A stretch of DNA of 64,000 bases, from contig CAKNHF010000006.1 in assembly GCA_930972465.1 (NCBI GenBank), positions 1-64,000 on the forward strand, read 5' to 3'. The position numbers were made by a program, and so were the translations under genes. Below, piece after piece: positions 27,705 to 47,545 of the stretch (its first letter is position 1; every line of letters starts with the position of its first letter). This stretch comes from an uncultured Lachnospiraceae bacterium (GTDB lineage Bacteria > Bacillota > Clostridia > Lachnospirales > Lachnospiraceae). The notes under the pieces are model-generated. The model did no database searches. It was given only the letters and a program-made list of their open reading frames with translations, and had not been told where the DNA came from.

Positions 27705-28106
27705 CTTTGTGTGGCGAAAACAGGATTGTTCCTTGACAACCGAATAGTCATTCGCCAAATACTTCCTCTTTGTGATTGTGATGAGCATAAGCGTGCGGAG
27801 CAGTACGCTAAGACCTGCCGACAAGCAAATAGCGATGAAAGGTGGTGAGCGAGCCTATACTGACTCCCAATATCGGTTAGCCCCCGGTTCCGCCATAACC
27901 CACAAAGAGCATAATGGTACTCCCGTCCAGTCACAGTCCGAGCGGTATCCAATCCGCCGCAGGCAATGAGGGCGGCTCTGGCAGACCGTCAGTTGGGGTG
28001 AAACTCCCGTGGAGTCAGTTCGCTGCTGACCGTTTGGCGACTTCCCTGCGCTTTTGCGCATTTGCATTTCGGGGTGTCGAGGACAAATAGAAATGCCATG
28101 ATCATA
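27705..28106 (+). ncRNA. Structured non-coding region, candidate RNA
   Basis: No convincing coding frame. The stretch is more GC-rich than the genes on either side and full of self-complementary pieces: AGCGT/ACGCT (27790-27809), CCGCC/GGCGG (about 27954-27975), GTCAG/CTGAC (28014-28030) and TGCGC-TTTT-GCGCA (28047-28060). A TTGACA at 27733 may start it, though its -10 is weak. It lies between the sigma-like gene and MazF. Strand and boundaries are uncertain. Confidence 0.35.
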
Positions 28107-39873: not shown

Positions 39874-40031
39874 AAACAGAAACGTTTTACAGGCCGTTAT
39901 ATGCACGCAAGATTAAAATATATCAATATAAATGATTAATTTTGCCACTACCATAGTTCGTAAACCTGTGTTAGTATAAGTGAGGATAAAATAAAACAAC
40001 AAAATTGATTAAATATAAGGAGACGTATGAC

Positions 40032-42020
40032 ATGGAAAACTGGAAGAAATACGAAAAGACATATTTTATGCCGCCGGAGCCGTGCTATGACTGGGTGAAA
40101 AAAGACGCAATAGACAAACATCCGATCTGGTGCAGCGTTGACTTAAGAGACGGAAATCAGGCTTTGATCGAACCTATGAGTCTGGATGAGAAACTGGAGT
40201 TCTTTCAGCTTCTTCTGGACGTGGGCTTCAAAGTAATTGAAGTCGGATTCCCGGCAGCATCTGAGACAGAATATCAGTTTGTAAGAACGTTGATTGAACA
40301 GAATATGATTCCGGACGATGTCACGATCCAGGTGCTTACACAGGCAAGAGAGCACATTATCAGAAAAACATTTGAAGCGGTCAAGGGCGCTCCGCATGCT
40401 ATTATACATGTATACAATTCTACATCGGTAGCACAGAGAGAGCAGGTTTTCAAAAAAGACAAAGAGCAGATCAAGAAGATTGCCACAGACGGCGCGGAGC
40501 TTCTGAAAAAACTTGCGGATGAGACGAAAGGCAACTTTACATTTGAGTACAGTCCGGAGAGTTTCCAGGGAACGGAAGTGGACTATGCGCTTGAAGTCTG
40601 CAACGCGGTGCTTGATATCTGGAAGCCGACGCCGGATAACAAAGCGGTCATCAATCTTCCGACAACTGTTGAAAATGCAATGCCTCATGTGTTCGCAAGC
40701 CAGGTTGAGTATTTCAACAAACATCTGCTTCACAGGGACAGCGTAATCCTTTCTCTTCATCCGCACAATGACCGTGGTTCGGGTGTCAGTGATGCCGAGC
40801 TTGGAATTCTTGCGGGCGCTGACAGGATCGAGGGCACTTTGTTCGGCAATGGCGAGCGTACGGGCAACGTGGATATTATAACCGTAGCTATGAATATGTT
40901 TTCCCAGGGAGTGGATCCGGGACTGGATTTCTCTAATATGAGCGAGATATGTGAGGTCTACGAGCGTGTCACAAGGATGAAAGTCTCTCCGAGACAGCCC
41001 TATGCAGGAGAACTGGTCTTCACGGCCTTTTCCGGTTCTCATCAGGATGCGATCGCCAAAGGTATGGCCTGGAGAGAAGAGAAACATACGGAGAAATGGA
41101 GCGTTCCGTATCTTCCGATTGATCCAAAGGATGTTGGACGGCGATACGATTCCGATGTTATCCGGATCAACAGCCAGTCGGGAAAAGGCGGCGTAAACTA
41201 TATCCTGAAACAGAGTTTCGGGATCAGTCTCCCGGAAAAGATGAAAGAGGAAGTCGGCTATCTTGTGAAAGATGTATCCGACAAGGCTCACAAGGAACTT
41301 ACTCCGGACTGGGTATATCATATTTTCGAGGACAATTATATCAATGCGAAACCTGTATTTACGGTAGACGAATGCCACTTTAAGCAGGAAGACGGCATCG
41401 TTGCGGAGGCGACCATCCACCACAACGGAAATGACCTGAAAATTACAGGTGTCGGAAACGGGCGTCTTGACGCGGTGAGCAATGCAATCAAACATTATTT
41501 TGACGTGAGCTATGAGCTGGCGTTCTATGAAGAGCATTCACTTACAAAAGGATCTTCCTCAAGGGCTGTCGCGTATGTGGGCGTGATCTGCAATAAGAAG
41601 CTTTACTGGGGCGTGGGAATCGATCCGGATATTATCAAAGCTTCCATTGAGGCATTGGTTGTTGCGGTAAATAAGATCAAGGAGATTGTAGAGTCTGAGG
41701 TGAATAAAGATGAGAGACTCCTTGAGATAACGAACTATATTTATGCGAACTACAAGGATGTAACCCTGGATGACCTGGCAGAAAAATTTTTCCTCTCCAA
41801 GCCGTATCTCTCGAAATATATCAAGGAAAAGTCGGGTATGACTTTCGGCGATATTCTGAAAAAGGTGCGCATGAAGAAAGCGCGGGCCATGTTAAAGAGC
41901 AGCACTGCCACTGTTGAGAGCATTGCGGAGTCTGTGGGGTATCAGAATGTAGAACACTTTAACCGGGTTTTCAAGAAAATGTATAATATTACTCCTGTAC
42001 AGTACAGGAACAGACACTAG
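40032..42020 (+). CDS. leuA: 2-isopropylmalate synthase fused to an AraC-type DNA-binding domain
   Basis: A 662-residue protein. Residues about 1-557 are a complete long-type (LeuA2) isopropylmalate synthase: [12 protein letters not shown] near 34, [12 protein letters not shown] with the metal Hx[12 protein letters not shown], and the C-terminal LeuA dimer/regulatory domain with [11 protein letters not shown]. Residues 558-662 are a full AraC-type double [26 protein letters not shown] and [22 protein letters not shown], ending [11 protein letters not shown]. The joint is in one uninterrupted frame without a stop or frameshift. It condenses acetyl-CoA and 2-oxoisovalerate for leucine, and may also bind DNA. 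The ATG follows AAGGAGA. Downstream is a strong terminator, so it is monocistronic. Confidence 0.92.
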
Positions 42021-42107: not shown

Positions 42108-42154
42108 GCCGTATAAAACGTGTTTCATGGGGAAACACATTTTATGCGGCTTTT
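42108..42154 (+). terminator. Terminator after leuA
   Basis: A nearly perfect stem of about 19 bp, GCCGTATAAAACGTGTTTC against GGAAACACATTTTATGCGGC, with loop ATGG, then TTTT. Confidence 0.85.
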
Positions 42155-42316: not shown

Positions 42317-43756
42317 ATGAGCTACGACGCAACAGGAAACTCAGCGGGCAGACGAATCACGGCGCTGCTTGACGAGGGAAGCTTTGTTGAAATTGGCGGT
42401 GCGGTTACAGCGAGAAGCACGAATTTCAACCTGCAGGAAAAAGAAACTCCGTCTGACGGTGTTGTCACCGGATACGGAACGATCGATGGAAATCTTGTCT
42501 ATGTATACAGCCAGGATCCCTCAGTCCTTAACGGAACGATCGGAGAGATGCACGCAAAGAAAATTGTAAAAATGTACGATATGGCCATGAAGATGGGAGC
42601 CCCTGTGATCGGACTGATTGACTGTGCGGGGCTGAGACTTCAGGAAGCGACTGATGCGCTGGAGGCGTTCGGAAACCTGTATTATAAACAGTCCATGGCA
42701 TCCGGAGTGGTTCCTCAGATTGCGGCTGTTTTCGGCATGTGCGGAGGCGGTCTTGCAGTTGTTCCCGGGCTTGCTGATTTTACTTTTATGGAGAAAGAGA
42801 ACGGGAAGCTTTTCGTTAATGCTCCGAACGCGCTGGCCGGAAACGAGATTTCCAGGTGCAATACTTCAGACGCGCAATATCAGAGTACGGTAACAGGCCT
42901 TGTGGATGCTGTCGGAACGGAAGAGGAAATTCTGGGACAGATCCGTTCTCTTATATGTATGCTGCCGGCAAACTGTGAAGATGATCTTTCGTATGAACCA
43001 TGTGAAGATGATCTGAACCGGCTCTGCCCGGACCTGGCCGCTTCTGCGGAAGATGCCGTCCTGGCGCTGAGGCAGATTTCCGATAGCGGAATCTTTTTTG
43101 AGATAAAGAAGGATTATGCAAAGGAGATGGTCACAGGCTTTGTTCGTCTGAACGGTATGACGGTTGGTGCAGTTGCGAACCGTACGAAAGTGTATGGCGC
43201 AGACGGAGCGGAGGAAGCATCCTGCGACTGCGGGCTTACTGTGGACGGGTGCGGGAAGGCTGCTGACTTTGTCAATTTCTGTGATGCGTTTTCTGTTCCG
43301 GTTCTAACGCTTACTAATGTGTCAGGGTTCTCGGCTGCTGTTGAATCCGAGAAGAATATGGCACGCGCGGCGGCAAAACTGACTTATGCTTTTGCAAATG
43401 CGACTGTGCCCAAGGTGAATGTGATCGTCGGCAAGGCGTTCGGAAGCGCCTATGTGACGATGAACAGCCGTTCAATAGGAGCGGATATGGTATATGCATG
43501 GCCGACGGCTCAGATCGGAATGATGGATGCCGATATGGCGGCGCGGATCATGTATCCGGATGCAGGGACAGCCGAGCTCAGGGAAAAATCCGCCGAATAC
43601 CGTCTTCTTCAGTCCAGTCCGGAATCCGCGGCGGGAAGAGGTTACGTGGATGCGGTCATTGAACCGCAGGATACGAGAAAATACGTGATCGGAGCATTTG
43701 AGATGCTTTTTACAAAGAGAGAGGGACGTCCGGACAAAAAACACGGTACGGTTTAG
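42317..43756 (+). CDS. mmdA: Acyl-CoA carboxyltransferase, MmdA/12S-like
   Basis: A 479-residue carboxyltransferase of the crotonase-like fold with two halves. The N-terminal half has the CoA-site pattern GMCGGGLAVVPGLADF and the second half carries the IVGKAFGSAYVTMNSRSIGADMVYAWPTAQIGMM segment. Relatives are the alpha subunit of methylmalonyl-CoA decarboxylase, the 12S subunit of transcarboxylase and propionyl-CoA carboxylase beta. Substrate is uncertain, as the sequence is divergent and slightly short. It leads the operon with biotin carrier, pump and OadA-like genes. GGAGG precedes the ATG. Confidence 0.82.
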   Translation: MSYDATGNSAGRRITALLDEGSFVEIGGAVTARSTNFNLQEKETPSDGVVTGYGTIDGNLVYVYSQDPSVLNGTIGEMHAKKIVKMYDMAMKMGAPVIGLIDCAGLRLQEATDALEAFGNLYYKQSMASGVVPQIAAVFGMCGGGLAVVPGLADFTFMEKENGKLFVNAPNALAGNEISRCNTSDAQYQSTVTGLVDAVGTEEEILGQIRSLICMLPANCEDDLSYEPCEDDLNRLCPDLAASAEDAVLALRQISDSGIFFEIKKDYAKEMVTGFVRLNGMTVGAVANRTKVYGADGAEEASCDCGLTVDGCGKAADFVNFCDAFSVPVLTLTNVSGFSAAVESEKNMARAAAKLTYAFANATVPKVNVIVGKAFGSAYVTMNSRSIGADMVYAWPTAQIGMMDADMAARIMYPDAGTAELREKSAEYRLLQSSPESAAGRGYVDAVIEPQDTRKYVIGAFEMLFTKREGRPDKKHGTV

Positions 43757-43770
43757 TGAGGTGAGGCGAA

Positions 43771-44541
43771 GTGAAGAAGAAAATCAGTTTATTGGGACTT
43801 GTCCTCATCCTTGTTCTCGGATTTACAGGATGCAGCAGGTCCACGATGGAATATGATCAGACGGAACTTGAGCAGTATGCCAATTTTATCGTCCAGAACT
43901 TCAGCGGACTTCCCGATGAACAGCTGGACAGTTTTTCTGAAATATCTGAACTGGAGCTGGATCTGACACTGCTGAATGCAGGTGTGCCGATCTCGGGAGA
44001 AGATTTTCTGACCATGATTGATGCATGGCAGGCCGGAGAGGAAGAGTGCGGCGCATTTATCGGAATTGGAGAATATACTGCGGAGACGACAAATGACGGT
44101 GTGACACTTTCGGCGGAAGCTGAATATGAAGACAGAAACGCAACCATAGAATTCGCATTTGATGATGAAATGAATATGGAGAGCATCACCGTGAGTGCGG
44201 ATTATACGACCGGAGAGATACTTCAGAAAGCGGGCCTTAATACGATCCTCGGGATGGGAACCGTATTTGTCGTTCTGATATTCCTGTCTTTCGTCATCTG
44301 GCTCCTGAAATTTATTCCGGTTCTTGAAACAAGGTTCCGGAAAAGCGGAGATGCGGAAGATACGGCTCAGACACCGGACGAAGAACCGGAGCGGCTGCAG
44401 CCTGCCGCGGAGGAGATAAATCCTTCGGAAGATGAAGAGCTCGCTGCGGTGATAGCAGCGGCCATCGCGGCGGCGGAAGGGACTTCCACAGACGGATTTG
44501 TTGTAAGATCAATCAGAAGAAGAAAATCAAATAAATGGTAA
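43771..44541 (+). CDS. oadG: OadG-like gamma subunit with an extra N-terminal outer domain
   Basis: A 256-residue protein. Residues 1-21 look like a lipoprotein signal ending GFTGC; about 22-155 form an acidic domain outside the membrane. A single helix (158-180, GMGTVFVVLIFLSFVIWLL) is the OadG-like part, followed by a charged tail with Ala/Glu-rich AAIAAAEGTSTDGFVVRSI. Ordinary OadG proteins are about 80-120 residues and lack the front domain. It should hold the carboxyltransferase near the pump. GTG start with GAGGTGAGG upstream; the end overlaps bases before the biotin-carrier gene. Confidence 0.72.
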   Translation: MKKKISLLGLVLILVLGFTGCSRSTMEYDQTELEQYANFIVQNFSGLPDEQLDSFSEISELELDLTLLNAGVPISGEDFLTMIDAWQAGEEECGAFIGIGEYTAETTNDGVTLSAEAEYEDRNATIEFAFDDEMNMESITVSADYTTGEILQKAGLNTILGMGTVFVVLIFLSFVIWLLKFIPVLETRFRKSGDAEDTAQTPDEEPERLQPAAEEINPSEDEELAAVIAAAIAAAEGTSTDGFVVRSIRRRKSNKW

Positions 44542-44558
44542 AACAGGAGGACCAGAAA

Positions 44559-44936
44559 ATGAAAAGCTATACGATTACAGTGAACGGAAATGTATATGAT
44601 GTGACAGTGGAAGAGAAGAGTGCTTCTCAGACAGCGCCGGCCGCAGCTGCGCCTGCGGCGGTTCCGAAAATGCCGGCGGCGCAGCCACCGGTTCAGGCTC
44701 CGGCTCAGAAAGCAGCGGCGGGAAAGATTCAGGTAAAGGCGGGAGCGGCCGGGAAAGTGTACCAGATTCCGACGACTGTAGGGCAGAGTGTTCAGCCCGG
44801 GGATGCGGTTGTTATTATTGAGGCTATGAAAATGGAGATCCCGGTTGTTGCTCCGGAAGCCGGTACTGTTGCCAGCATCGATGTGGCAGTGGGAGATGCG
44901 GTAGAGGCAGGAGCGGTACTTGCTACATTAAATTAG
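44559..44936 (+). CDS. Biotin carrier protein of the decarboxylase
   Basis: A 125-residue protein. An N-terminal beta segment (SYTITVNGNVYDVTVEE) and an Ala/Pro-rich flexible linker (25-55) lead to a biotinyl domain with EAMKMEIP, K91 being the biotin site. It carries CO2 between carboxyltransferase and pump. ATG 44559 follows AGGAGG; the earlier in-frame ATG at 44535 lies before that site. Confidence 0.93.
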   Translation: MKSYTITVNGNVYDVTVEEKSASQTAPAAAAPAAVPKMPAAQPPVQAPAQKAAAGKIQVKAGAAGKVYQIPTTVGQSVQPGDAVVIIEAMKMEIPVVAPEAGTVASIDVAVGDAVEAGAVLATLN

Positions 44937-44957
44937 TTCTTCCGGGAGGTTTGACAG

Positions 44958-46109
44958 ATGGAATATATTTCAAATACACTGGGGAATCTTGTGGAGCAGA
45001 CTGCTTTCATGAATCTGACCTGGGGAAATCTGGTTATGATCGGCGTCGCCTGCATCTTTCTCTATCTTGCAATCAGGCACGGCTTTGAGCCGCTGCTGCT
45101 TGTTCCGATCGCCTTCGGCATGCTTCTGGTTAATATTTATCCGGATATTATGATCAGTCCCGAAGAGGCGTCTAATGGAACAGGAGGTCTGCTTTATTAT
45201 TTTTATGTACTTGACGAGTGGTCGATCCTTCCGTCTCTGATCTTCCTTGGAGTCGGCGCGATGACGGATTTCGGACCGTTGATCGCAAATCCGAAGAGCT
45301 TTCTTCTGGGAGCGGCCGCGCAGTTTGGAATTTTTGCGGCATATCTGGGCGCCATGGCAATGGGCTTTTCCGACAGAGCGGCGGCGGCGATTTCGATCAT
45401 AGGAGGAGCTGACGGTCCTACTTCCATTTTCCTTGCCGGAAAGCTGGAACAGACTGCGATTCTCGGGCCGATCGCAGTGGCGGCTTACTCGTATATGTCC
45501 CTGGTTCCGATAATCCAGCCGCCCATCATGAAACTGCTCACGACCGAAAAAGAGCGCAAGATTAAGATGGAGCAGCTTCGTCCCGTATCGAAACTGGAGA
45601 GAATTCTGTTTCCGGTTATCATCACGATTGTGGTCTGCGTGATCCTTCCGACAACGGCTCCGCTGGTCGGTATGCTCATGCTGGGCAACTTGTTTAAGGA
45701 GTCCGGAGTAGTCCGGCAGCTGACAGATACGGCGGCAAATGTACTGATGTATATCGTAGTTATTCTGCTGGGAACTTCGGTTGGCGCTACGACAAGTGCC
45801 GAGGCATTTCTGAACTGGGATACGATCAAGATTGTGATTCTGGGACTGATCGCTTTTGCGTTTGGAACTGCTGCCGGCGTTCTGTTCGGAAAACTGATGT
45901 GCTGGGCAACCAAGGGCAAGGTGAATCCGTTGATCGGCTCGGCAGGTGTATCGGCCGTTCCCATGGCTGCAAGAGTTTCTCAGAAGGTAGGTGCGGAGGC
46001 CGATCCTACCAACTTCCTTCTGATGCATGCAATGGGACCGAATGTTGCCGGCGTTATCGGTACTGCTGTGGTAGCGGGAACATTTATGGCAATCTTCGGC
46101 GTTAAGTAG
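44958..46109 (+). CDS. oadB: Na+-translocating decarboxylase beta subunit
   Basis: A 383-residue protein with about nine membrane helices. The key [15 protein letters not shown] segment, with the aspartate that binds Na+ in OadB/MmdB/GcdB, is near 150. It decarboxylates carboxybiotin and pumps Na+ outward. GGGAGG precedes the ATG. Length is normal. The subunit is common to oxaloacetate, methylmalonyl-CoA and glutaconyl-CoA decarboxylases, so it does not define the substrate. Confidence 0.95.
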
Positions 46110-46129
46110 TTATTATGGAGGAAAAATAA

Positions 46130-47545
46130 ATGGCAGAAATAGAAAAAAAACCGGTTAAGATTACAGAGACGATTCTTCGTGATGCACACCAGTCTCTGAT
46201 CGCCACAAGAATGACAACAGAACAGATGCTTCCGATTGTTGATAAGATGGACAAAGTAGGGTACCACGCGGTCGAATGCTGGGGCGGCGCAACATTTGAT
46301 GCATCTCTGCGTTTCCTTAAAGAGGATCCGTGGGAGAGGCTGAGAAAGTTCCGCGACGGATTCAAGCATACAAAGCTTCAGATGCTCTTCCGCGGACAGA
46401 ATATTCTCGGATATCGCCCCTATGCCGACGATGTGGTGGAATATTTTGTGCAGAAATCCGCCGCCAATGGAATTGATATCATACGTATCTTTGACTGCCT
46501 GAACGATATCCGGAATCTTCAGACAGCGGTTACGGCTGCGAATAAGGAGAAGGCTCATGCGCAGGTGGCAATGTCCTATACCCTGGGGGACGCCTATACT
46601 CTGGATTACTGGGTGGATCTTGCAAAGCGAATCGAAGACATGGGTGCCAACTCTATCTGTGTCAAAGATATGGCAGGACTTCTTTGTCCGTATCAGGCTA
46701 CTGAGCTGGTTACGGCTCTGAAAGGAGCGGTCAGCATCCCAATAGAAATGCACACACATTATACATCGGGAGTCGCCTCAATGACATATATGAAAGCTGT
46801 TGAGGCCGGGGCGGATATCATCGATACCGCAATTTCTCCGTTTGCACTGGGAACATCTCAGCCCGCGACGGAAGTTATGGTGGAGACCTTTAAAGGAACG
46901 CCTTGCGATACAGGTCTGGATCAGAATCTTCTGGCCGAGATTGCGGACTATTTCAGACCGATCAAGGATGAAGCGTTAAAGAGCGGGCTTCTTAATCCTA
47001 CAAATCTGGGTGTGAATATCAAGACGCTGCTTTATCAGGTGCCGGGAGGCATGCTCTCCAACCTTACTTCTCAGCTCAAGGAGCAGGGAGCAGAGGAGCG
47101 TTTCTACGATGTGCTTGAGGAAGTTCCCAGGGTCCGCAGAGATCTCGGCGAGCCGCCGCTTGTTACACCTTCTTCTCAGATTGTCGGCACACAGGCTGTG
47201 CTGAACGTTCTGATGGGGGAACGTTATAAAGTGGCGACAAAAGAGACAAAAGATATACTGGCAGGAAAATACGGCGCAACTGTGAAACCCGTCAATAAAG
47301 ATCTTCAGAAGAAAATCCTGGGCGAAGATGCTGAAATTATCACATGCCGTCCGGCTGATCTCATCCCGAACGAGCTCGATACACTTCGTAAAGAGTGCGA
47401 ACGCTGGATCCAGCAGGATGAAGATGTCCTAACGTATGCATTGTTCCCGCAGGTGGCGGTGGACTTCTTTAAATATCGAGAAGCACAGCAGACGAAAATT
47501 GATGAGACTGTTGCAGACACAGAGAATGGAGCATACCCTGTATAA
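46130..47545 (+). CDS. oadA: Oxaloacetate decarboxylase alpha/PycB-type carboxyltransferase
   Basis: A 471-residue enzyme of the DRE-TIM family. LRDAHQSLIATRM (about 16-28) holds the catalytic D-H-Q, the carbamylated lysine is in ICVKDMAGL near 184, and the metal histidines are in EMHTHYTSG near 209. Followed by the PYC_OADA domain (ADIIDTA, TNLGVNIKTLLYQVPGGMLSNL). It lacks its own biotin domain, so it must use the carrier encoded at 44559. It moves CO2 between pyruvate/oxaloacetate and biotin. AGGA precedes the ATG. Confidence 0.93.
   Translation: MAEIEKKPVKITETILRDAHQSLIATRMTTEQMLPIVDKMDKVGYHAVECWGGATFDASLRFLKEDPWERLRKFRDGFKHTKLQMLFRGQNILGYRPYADDVVEYFVQKSAANGIDIIRIFDCLNDIRNLQTAVTAANKEKAHAQVAMSYTLGDAYTLDYWVDLAKRIEDMGANSICVKDMAGLLCPYQATELVTALKGAVSIPIEMHTHYTSGVASMTYMKAVEAGADIIDTAISPFALGTSQPATEVMVETFKGTPCDTGLDQNLLAEIADYFRPIKDEALKSGLLNPTNLGVNIKTLLYQVPGGMLSNLTSQLKEQGAEERFYDVLEEVPRVRRDLGEPPLVTPSSQIVGTQAVLNVLMGERYKVATKETKDILAGKYGATVKPVNKDLQKKILGEDAEIITCRPADLIPNELDTLRKECERWIQQDEDVLTYALFPQVAVDFFKYREAQQTKIDETVADTENGAYPV

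Follow-up and report, generated by a model that had tools for sequence, protein, structure and literature searches.

Can an enzyme of leucine biosynthesis also act as a transcription factor, and if so, for which genes? The question is raised by a leuA gene in the 64,000-nucleotide stretch of Lachnospiraceae DNA analysed here (the window), which continues into an AraC-type DNA-binding domain; its product is referred to as LeuA-HTH (Table 1). The initial annotation had read enzyme and AraC domain in a single frame, and this was confirmed: the frame is free of stops, and HMGL-like, IPMS_D2 and LeuA_dimer all exceed their curated Pfam cut-offs, as do HTH_18 (residues 582–661, 77.6 bits against a cut-off of 33.6) and HTH_AraC (residues 622–660, 47.4 bits against 26.6), the two motifs together identifying the domain as AraC-type. 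The NCBIfam model PRK03739.1 spans residues 5–548 (806 bits, cut-off 455), and the score for the equivalog model leuA_yeast (TIGR00970) lies just under its cut-off (672.6 against 697.4). In a sequence search of solved structures, the enzyme part matched 1sr9 (E 1.6e-155), which makes it a LeuA of the M. tuberculosis type, and the structures nearest to the HTH part were 6swi and YesN (3lsg).

An AlphaFold model of LeuA-HTH (mean pLDDT 77.6, pTM 0.58) places the last regulatory helix at residues 534–547, a short helix at 550–553 and then seven helices within 561–660, in agreement with the codons 41703–42017 first assigned to the HTH. The top Foldseek matches to the model were 3hpz, 3hps and 3fig, with AraC chains absent among the best 50 matches listed; the arrangement of the domains in the model is unreliable (rmsd 12–22 Å against whole LeuA chains). 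The LRDGNQ and SGSHQD motifs, both HPH histidines, and residues R39, D40, H243 and H245 are invariant in 159/159 aligned fused sequences. Taking as catalytic those residues that we presume to be so in 1SR9-type LeuA, the catalytic motifs are intact, and LeuA-HTH is predicted to be an active enzyme. It is also the sole close LeuA found in the 86%-complete genome to which the window belongs, where the only other LeuA-like match is partial, at 29% identity. Of the earlier proposal of one protein that makes the leucine precursor and reads the leucine level, a single intact chain with catalytic motifs and regulatory domain is supported; what this chain might control is taken up below.

Table 1. Features of the leuA-HTH locus, in window coordinates.
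Feature	Position	Strand	Basis
leuA-HTH fusion gene	40032..42020	+	662 aa, stop-free single frame; profile matches; full-length homologues
TIM-barrel catalytic domain (HMGL-like, residues 31–307)	40122..40952	+	Pfam; catalytic residues kept
IPMS post-catalytic domain (IPMS_D2, residues 327–393)	41010..41210	+	Pfam
LeuA_dimer leucine-regulatory domain (residues 422–549)	41295..41678	+	Pfam; aligns to M. tuberculosis LeuA including leucine-bound 3fig
AraC-type double-HTH domain (predicted helices 561–660)	41712..42011	+	Pfam, predicted helices, pN/pS 0.042
Candidate operator U	39912..39950, core 39922–39939	+	Upstream alignment, pattern and matrix scans
Candidate operator D	39985..40018, core 39995–40012	+	Second core copy, same orientation
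Extended -10 element (TGnTAnnnT form)	39969..39977	+	47 bp from U core start
Shine-Dalgarno-like AAGGAG	40017..40022	+	Read from sequence; at the end of D
Terminator-like hairpin after leuA-HTH	42120..42138	+	Weak evidence

A conserved non-coding element upstream of leuA emerged from the alignment of 92 upstream regions, and in the window it is present as two candidate operators, U and D, with cores 73 bp apart. The symmetry scores of U (4.82 for an inverted repeat against 1.42 for a direct repeat) suggest an imperfect palindrome as the better description of the family form, in keeping with recognition by a LeuA dimer of two-fold symmetry; it may instead consist of tandem half-sites in direct repeat, which scores weaker. 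Of 81 diverged loci, 65 have precisely 47 bp between the start of the U core and an extended -10 element, for which we assume the form TGnTAnnnT; the -10 motif itself occurs in 78/81, compared with 153/1620 shuffled tails. A promoter scan found neither a consensus -35 nor a -35/-10 pair at the window leuA promoter. D lies after the transcription start, which was predicted by eye at ~39984. In the 112 loci where two sites pass the threshold, the spacing is mostly 73–74 bp (79 loci); 9 loci have 58–59 bp, 2 (L048 and L144) have 63 bp, 12 others have 70–77 bp and the last 10 are scattered. Within 250 bp, D exceeds the threshold in 99/159 fused loci (13/71 of the more distant ones), and it is below threshold in many lineages that retain U.

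The leader of the window gene folds no better than shuffled sequence (z 0.38), which favours a DNA element; with no Rfam match there either, an RNA element in this leader was rejected. In seven loci (L047, L050, L059, L061, L062, L063 and L065), the operator by eye overlaps a terminator-like hairpin with a T run, and the same sequence may there be both the operator and the preceding gene's terminator. The hairpin that follows leuA-HTH in the window is weakly supported, since five terminator-like sites occur in the stretch against 2.0 expected by shuffling. Further downstream (42317–47545) are genes that by eye resemble a biotin-dependent sodium-pump decarboxylase: carboxyltransferase, small subunit, biotin carrier, membrane subunit and alpha subunit.

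The occurrence of the operator was compared with that of the HTH over 256 leuA loci, reduced to 223 by merging identical proteins; the HTH-less members were taken from the family matches listed, together with L225 from another family. For 222 leuA genes (one fused locus had too little upstream DNA), as much as 800 bp of upstream sequence was scanned with an operator matrix built from 50 close relatives, with the 99% quantile of 888 shuffles as threshold. The initial annotation had proposed counting promoter motifs among genomes with the fusion. The operator passes in 156/164 HTH-bearing loci, which include the training set and five short frames (two that run off a contig within the HTH and three that are broken at the joint), and in 1/58 HTH-less loci. 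Outside the training set, it is found in 106/114 HTH-bearing loci. The sole passing HTH-less locus, L222, scores 1.0 bit, about chance level. Among the eight misses, L308 (genome G369) has an operator further upstream, beyond the range of the scan, and in L307 the absence of the operator is accompanied by a diverged HTH, with 49–57% identity to four relatives that share 71–84% among themselves and with an ordinary barrel; L143, L267, L276, L314, L318 and L322 have neither a passing operator nor such an explanation. Four HTH-contrast pairs are available on supported tree branches, and eight on all branches. On the supported branches, the operator agrees with the HTH in 3.8 pairs and disagrees in 0.0 on average (200 pairings, one of which had one disagreement), and the test is not significant (median p 0.125); L308 was labelled by hand as operator-bearing, L222 as counted and L267 as lacking a T-box. 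The association of HTH and operator is strong by count and rests on few independent events.

The T-box leader (Rfam RF00230), an RNA element, precedes leuA in many HTH-less relatives. With a sequence signature that we take to represent the T-box, it was detected within 800 bp of leuA in 50/58 HTH-less loci compared with 16/164 HTH-bearing loci, and is thus mostly absent from the latter. Two sets of 20 loci were also searched with Rfam at the gathering threshold. In the first, 13 loci had a T-box, all among its 17 HTH-less members and none in the three HTH-bearing ones (L206, L212 and L224). The second, 20 of the 24 fused loci whose nearest 250 bp upstream contain no operator, had a T-box in 12. 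These 12 confirm the bulk of the 16 signature-positive HTH-bearing loci; L267, L307 and L310 fall below threshold, and L125 lies outside the set. Mutual exclusion of operator and T-box was considered and rejected as an artefact of the 250-bp window, as at 800 bp 13 loci carry both (11 with Rfam confirmation), the operator lying upstream of the leader. L308 is a further locus with this order. No T-box reaches the gathering threshold in the window, so that by this criterion its leuA is not T-box-controlled, and the leuC neighbourhood in the same genome is without an Rfam match. Other RNA matches were a Clostridiales-1 RNA between T-box leader and leuA in L208 and L218, a TwoAYGGAY RNA of 106.3 bits (L213:50–212) towards the end of the DNA examined, and a pemK RNA in the window (27911–28012, 43.1 bits).

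Judged from these comparisons, the fused HTH probably controls its own gene, leuA, be it by activation or by repression, and LeuA-HTH is best read as an autogenous trigger enzyme. The LeuA dimer would make 2-isopropylmalate and sense leucine through its C-terminal regulatory domain, and the AraC domain carried on that domain would bind U, which ends at the -35 position, in its own promoter and also, where present, D just past the transcription start. Leucine would be the natural signal, given that the HTH is attached to the leucine-regulatory domain. A site that ends at the -35 position at a mostly fixed distance, in a promoter with no -35 box, is the anatomy of an AraC-type activator, and candidate U, at a mostly fixed distance from the -10 and with no -35, is as expected of an activated promoter; by this analogy, leuA would be activated rather than repressed. 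Most likely, leucine-free LeuA-HTH at U would recruit RNA polymerase to the -35-less promoter, while leucine binding, or the simultaneous occupation of U and D across the promoter, would switch leuA off, with bound D, between start and ribosome binding site, limiting transcription. We hypothesize, with a probability of roughly 55%, that these parts form a one-gene closed circuit in which the enzyme is inhibited by leucine and the same leucine-bound state is read by the AraC domain for its own gene alone, replacing or stacked on a T-box leader in one family.

The autogenous core is shared by a second reading, possible rather than probable, in which leucine-bound LeuA-HTH would occupy U and D, turn leuA off by looping the promoter or blocking it, and never activate it. 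The position of D between the predicted start and the ribosome binding site would suit such an autorepressor, as would U–D spacings near whole helical turns, which are found at 73–74 bp and, in L048 and L144, at 63 bp. However, the 9/112 loci at 58–59 bp have non-integral turns, D falls below threshold in many lineages that keep U, and the mostly fixed distance from U to the extended -10, with no consensus -35 found, argues for activation.

To locate further targets, whole genomes were scanned for the operator. The exact U pattern gave 42 matches in 38/41 genomes of the genus, compared with 2 for a reversed control pattern; 34 sit 108–122 bp before leuA, 5 elsewhere and 3 in genomes without a located leuA. 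In the window's genome, the pattern relaxed to at most one mismatch gave 53 matches against 14 for the reversed control, and two of the four perfect matches are U and D. With a sequence-only model (R1), the top site was upstream of leuA in 22/24 genomes, the exceptions being G263 and G300, the genome of L307; in G065, a second site elsewhere (18.6 bits) nearly equals the leuA site (18.9 bits). Eight R1 sites away from leuA were inspected by eye from their reading frames and have no neighbour gene in common; one of them precedes a tuf-like gene. A wider regulon was rejected on the grounds that the inspected sites away from leuA are weaker and share no neighbour gene. With the best genome sites at leuA and nothing shared among the others, leuA is the only strong candidate target found for the HTH. 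This refines the suggestion of the initial annotation that the protein controls genes, perhaps itself: its own promoter, within the 39874–40031 region singled out there, does hold the best candidate operator found in the genome, but the target looks like leuA alone and not a wider gene set.

The same scans bear on the idea that the HTH acts on genes elsewhere and that the operator before leuA belongs to another regulator. AraC domains are plentiful in these genomes and weaker sites are present elsewhere, yet the operator tracks the HTH and is absent from L307, whose HTH has diverged, and the eight other sites offer no common neighbour by eye; we consider this idea unlikely.

A full-length fusion (residues 1–661 or 2–661, stop-free, at least 85% identity) is present in 35/37 genomes of the genus, including that of the window; only fragments were found in G010 (residues 1–159) and G023 (residues 615–661). 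The domain order, which the initial annotation had suggested looking for in other genomes, is indeed widespread. By an eye count, at least 89 of 397 family genomes have a stop-free match that reaches residue 659 or beyond (362/397 have a LeuA match of any kind), and an order-level search of 246 genomes found no fusion among the matches from other families. Among 80 named loci, 79 match to residue 659 or further, and L139 ends at residue 614, where its contig ends. Named carriers include [Ruminococcus] torques ATCC 27756, Mediterraneibacter massiliensis, Schaedlerella arabinosiphila, Lachnobacterium bovis and Agathobacter ruminis (L143, without a passing operator). An assembly error or pseudogene was rejected in view of full-length homologues across genomes together with the pN/pS values given below. 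Two genomes (G082 and G168) have a second, unfused LeuA at 49–51% identity beside the fused one, and in G644 and G487, where the long adjoining open frames were inspected by eye, an unfused leuA is followed by leuC.

A single open frame is retained across the joint in 159 aligned loci. The HTH as a separate frame, which would have spoken against the fusion, is exceptional: in L122 (one of the 79 named loci above, broken at about residue 556), L206 and L212, the joint is frame-broken and the HTH lies downstream in another frame; gene splitting, slippage and sequencing error are possible causes. A homopolymer run lies near the break in L212 and L122. In L139 and L224, a contig edge falls inside the HTH. 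It is improbable, given the 159 loci in one frame, that the real regulator is a free HTH fragment, arising from an internal start or by cleavage, with the enzyme part functionally unlinked, although L206 has an ATG after a purine-rich stretch in the HTH frame and the linker is the least conserved part of LeuA-HTH.

In a tree of the LeuA domain (181 sequences left after thinning close relatives), the fused set does not form a single clade, and 8 changes are required for the HTH. The history may be one of a single early fusion that was lost in several lineages, or one in which the HTH was gained or transferred more than once; the tree fits either.

Selection on the domains was compared over 51 loci at ≥88% identity (200 random pairs). 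The HTH had the lowest pN/pS (0.042), followed by the barrel (0.060), the regulatory domain (0.079) and the linker (0.23); with synonymous sites near saturation, these values are ratios of raw proportions. Conservation of the HTH is as tight as that of the catalytic barrel. Decay of key HTH positions, raised earlier as a possible objection, is not seen: E641 and R645 are each kept in 158/159 fused sequences. The contrast between fused (117) and unfused (58) enzymes is greatest in the regulatory domain (mean difference 0.347, compared with 0.122 for the barrel), and R478 in the GNGR loop of this domain is invariant in the 159 fused sequences, where M. tuberculosis has P. A passive fusion, in which the HTH regulates nothing and only helps to stabilise or localise the enzyme, would fit the 58 HTH-less leuA loci in or near the same family but is very improbable in view of the nearly invariant HTH residues, a pN/pS under that of the barrel and the presence of a matching operator.

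Several known systems resemble LeuA-HTH in part. LeuA of the M. tuberculosis type (1SR9, 3FIG; PRK03739) shares the enzyme subfamily, motifs and regulatory domain, but has no DNA-binding domain and ends about where the HTH of LeuA-HTH starts. AraC/XylS-type double-HTH regulators (6swi, YesN 3lsg) share HTH_18 and HTH_AraC and the seven predicted helices; their usual partners are sensor domains, whereas the partner here is a biosynthetic enzyme. Ada/AdaA likewise combines an enzyme with an AraC-type HTH and works at its own promoter, but the enzyme is a DNA-repair methyltransferase switched by methylation and not a metabolic feedback enzyme. The T-box leader shares the position before leuA, in many HTH-less relatives, but is an RNA element, mostly absent from HTH-bearing loci and combined with the operator in 13 of them. 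Trigger enzymes, defined as enzymes that control gene expression directly in response to their metabolites, include PutA and PdeL, both of which bind DNA at promoters; PdeL is an activator of its own expression, is affected negatively by c-di-GMP and binds an imperfect palindrome (PMC5052742). These are different enzymes with different DNA-binding domains, and LeuA-HTH, unlike them, has the pathway end product as its likely signal and its own gene as the only strong target found. No description of a LeuA–AraC fusion was found in the open literature searched, a scope outside which most subscription papers lie, and the passages of PMC5171806 consulted do not mention leuA. What is new here is the probable target of LeuA-HTH, the operator before its own gene.

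If this is true, allosteric and transcriptional feedback would reside in one polypeptide with one leucine site, and why cells keep two layers of end-product control would become testable by cutting one domain. Some lineages of this family have the fused HTH and its operator, some a T-box leader and some both, which would form a natural experiment on how protein and RNA control replace one another. The findings suggest that the 2-isopropylmalate synthases of common gut bacteria may double as regulators.
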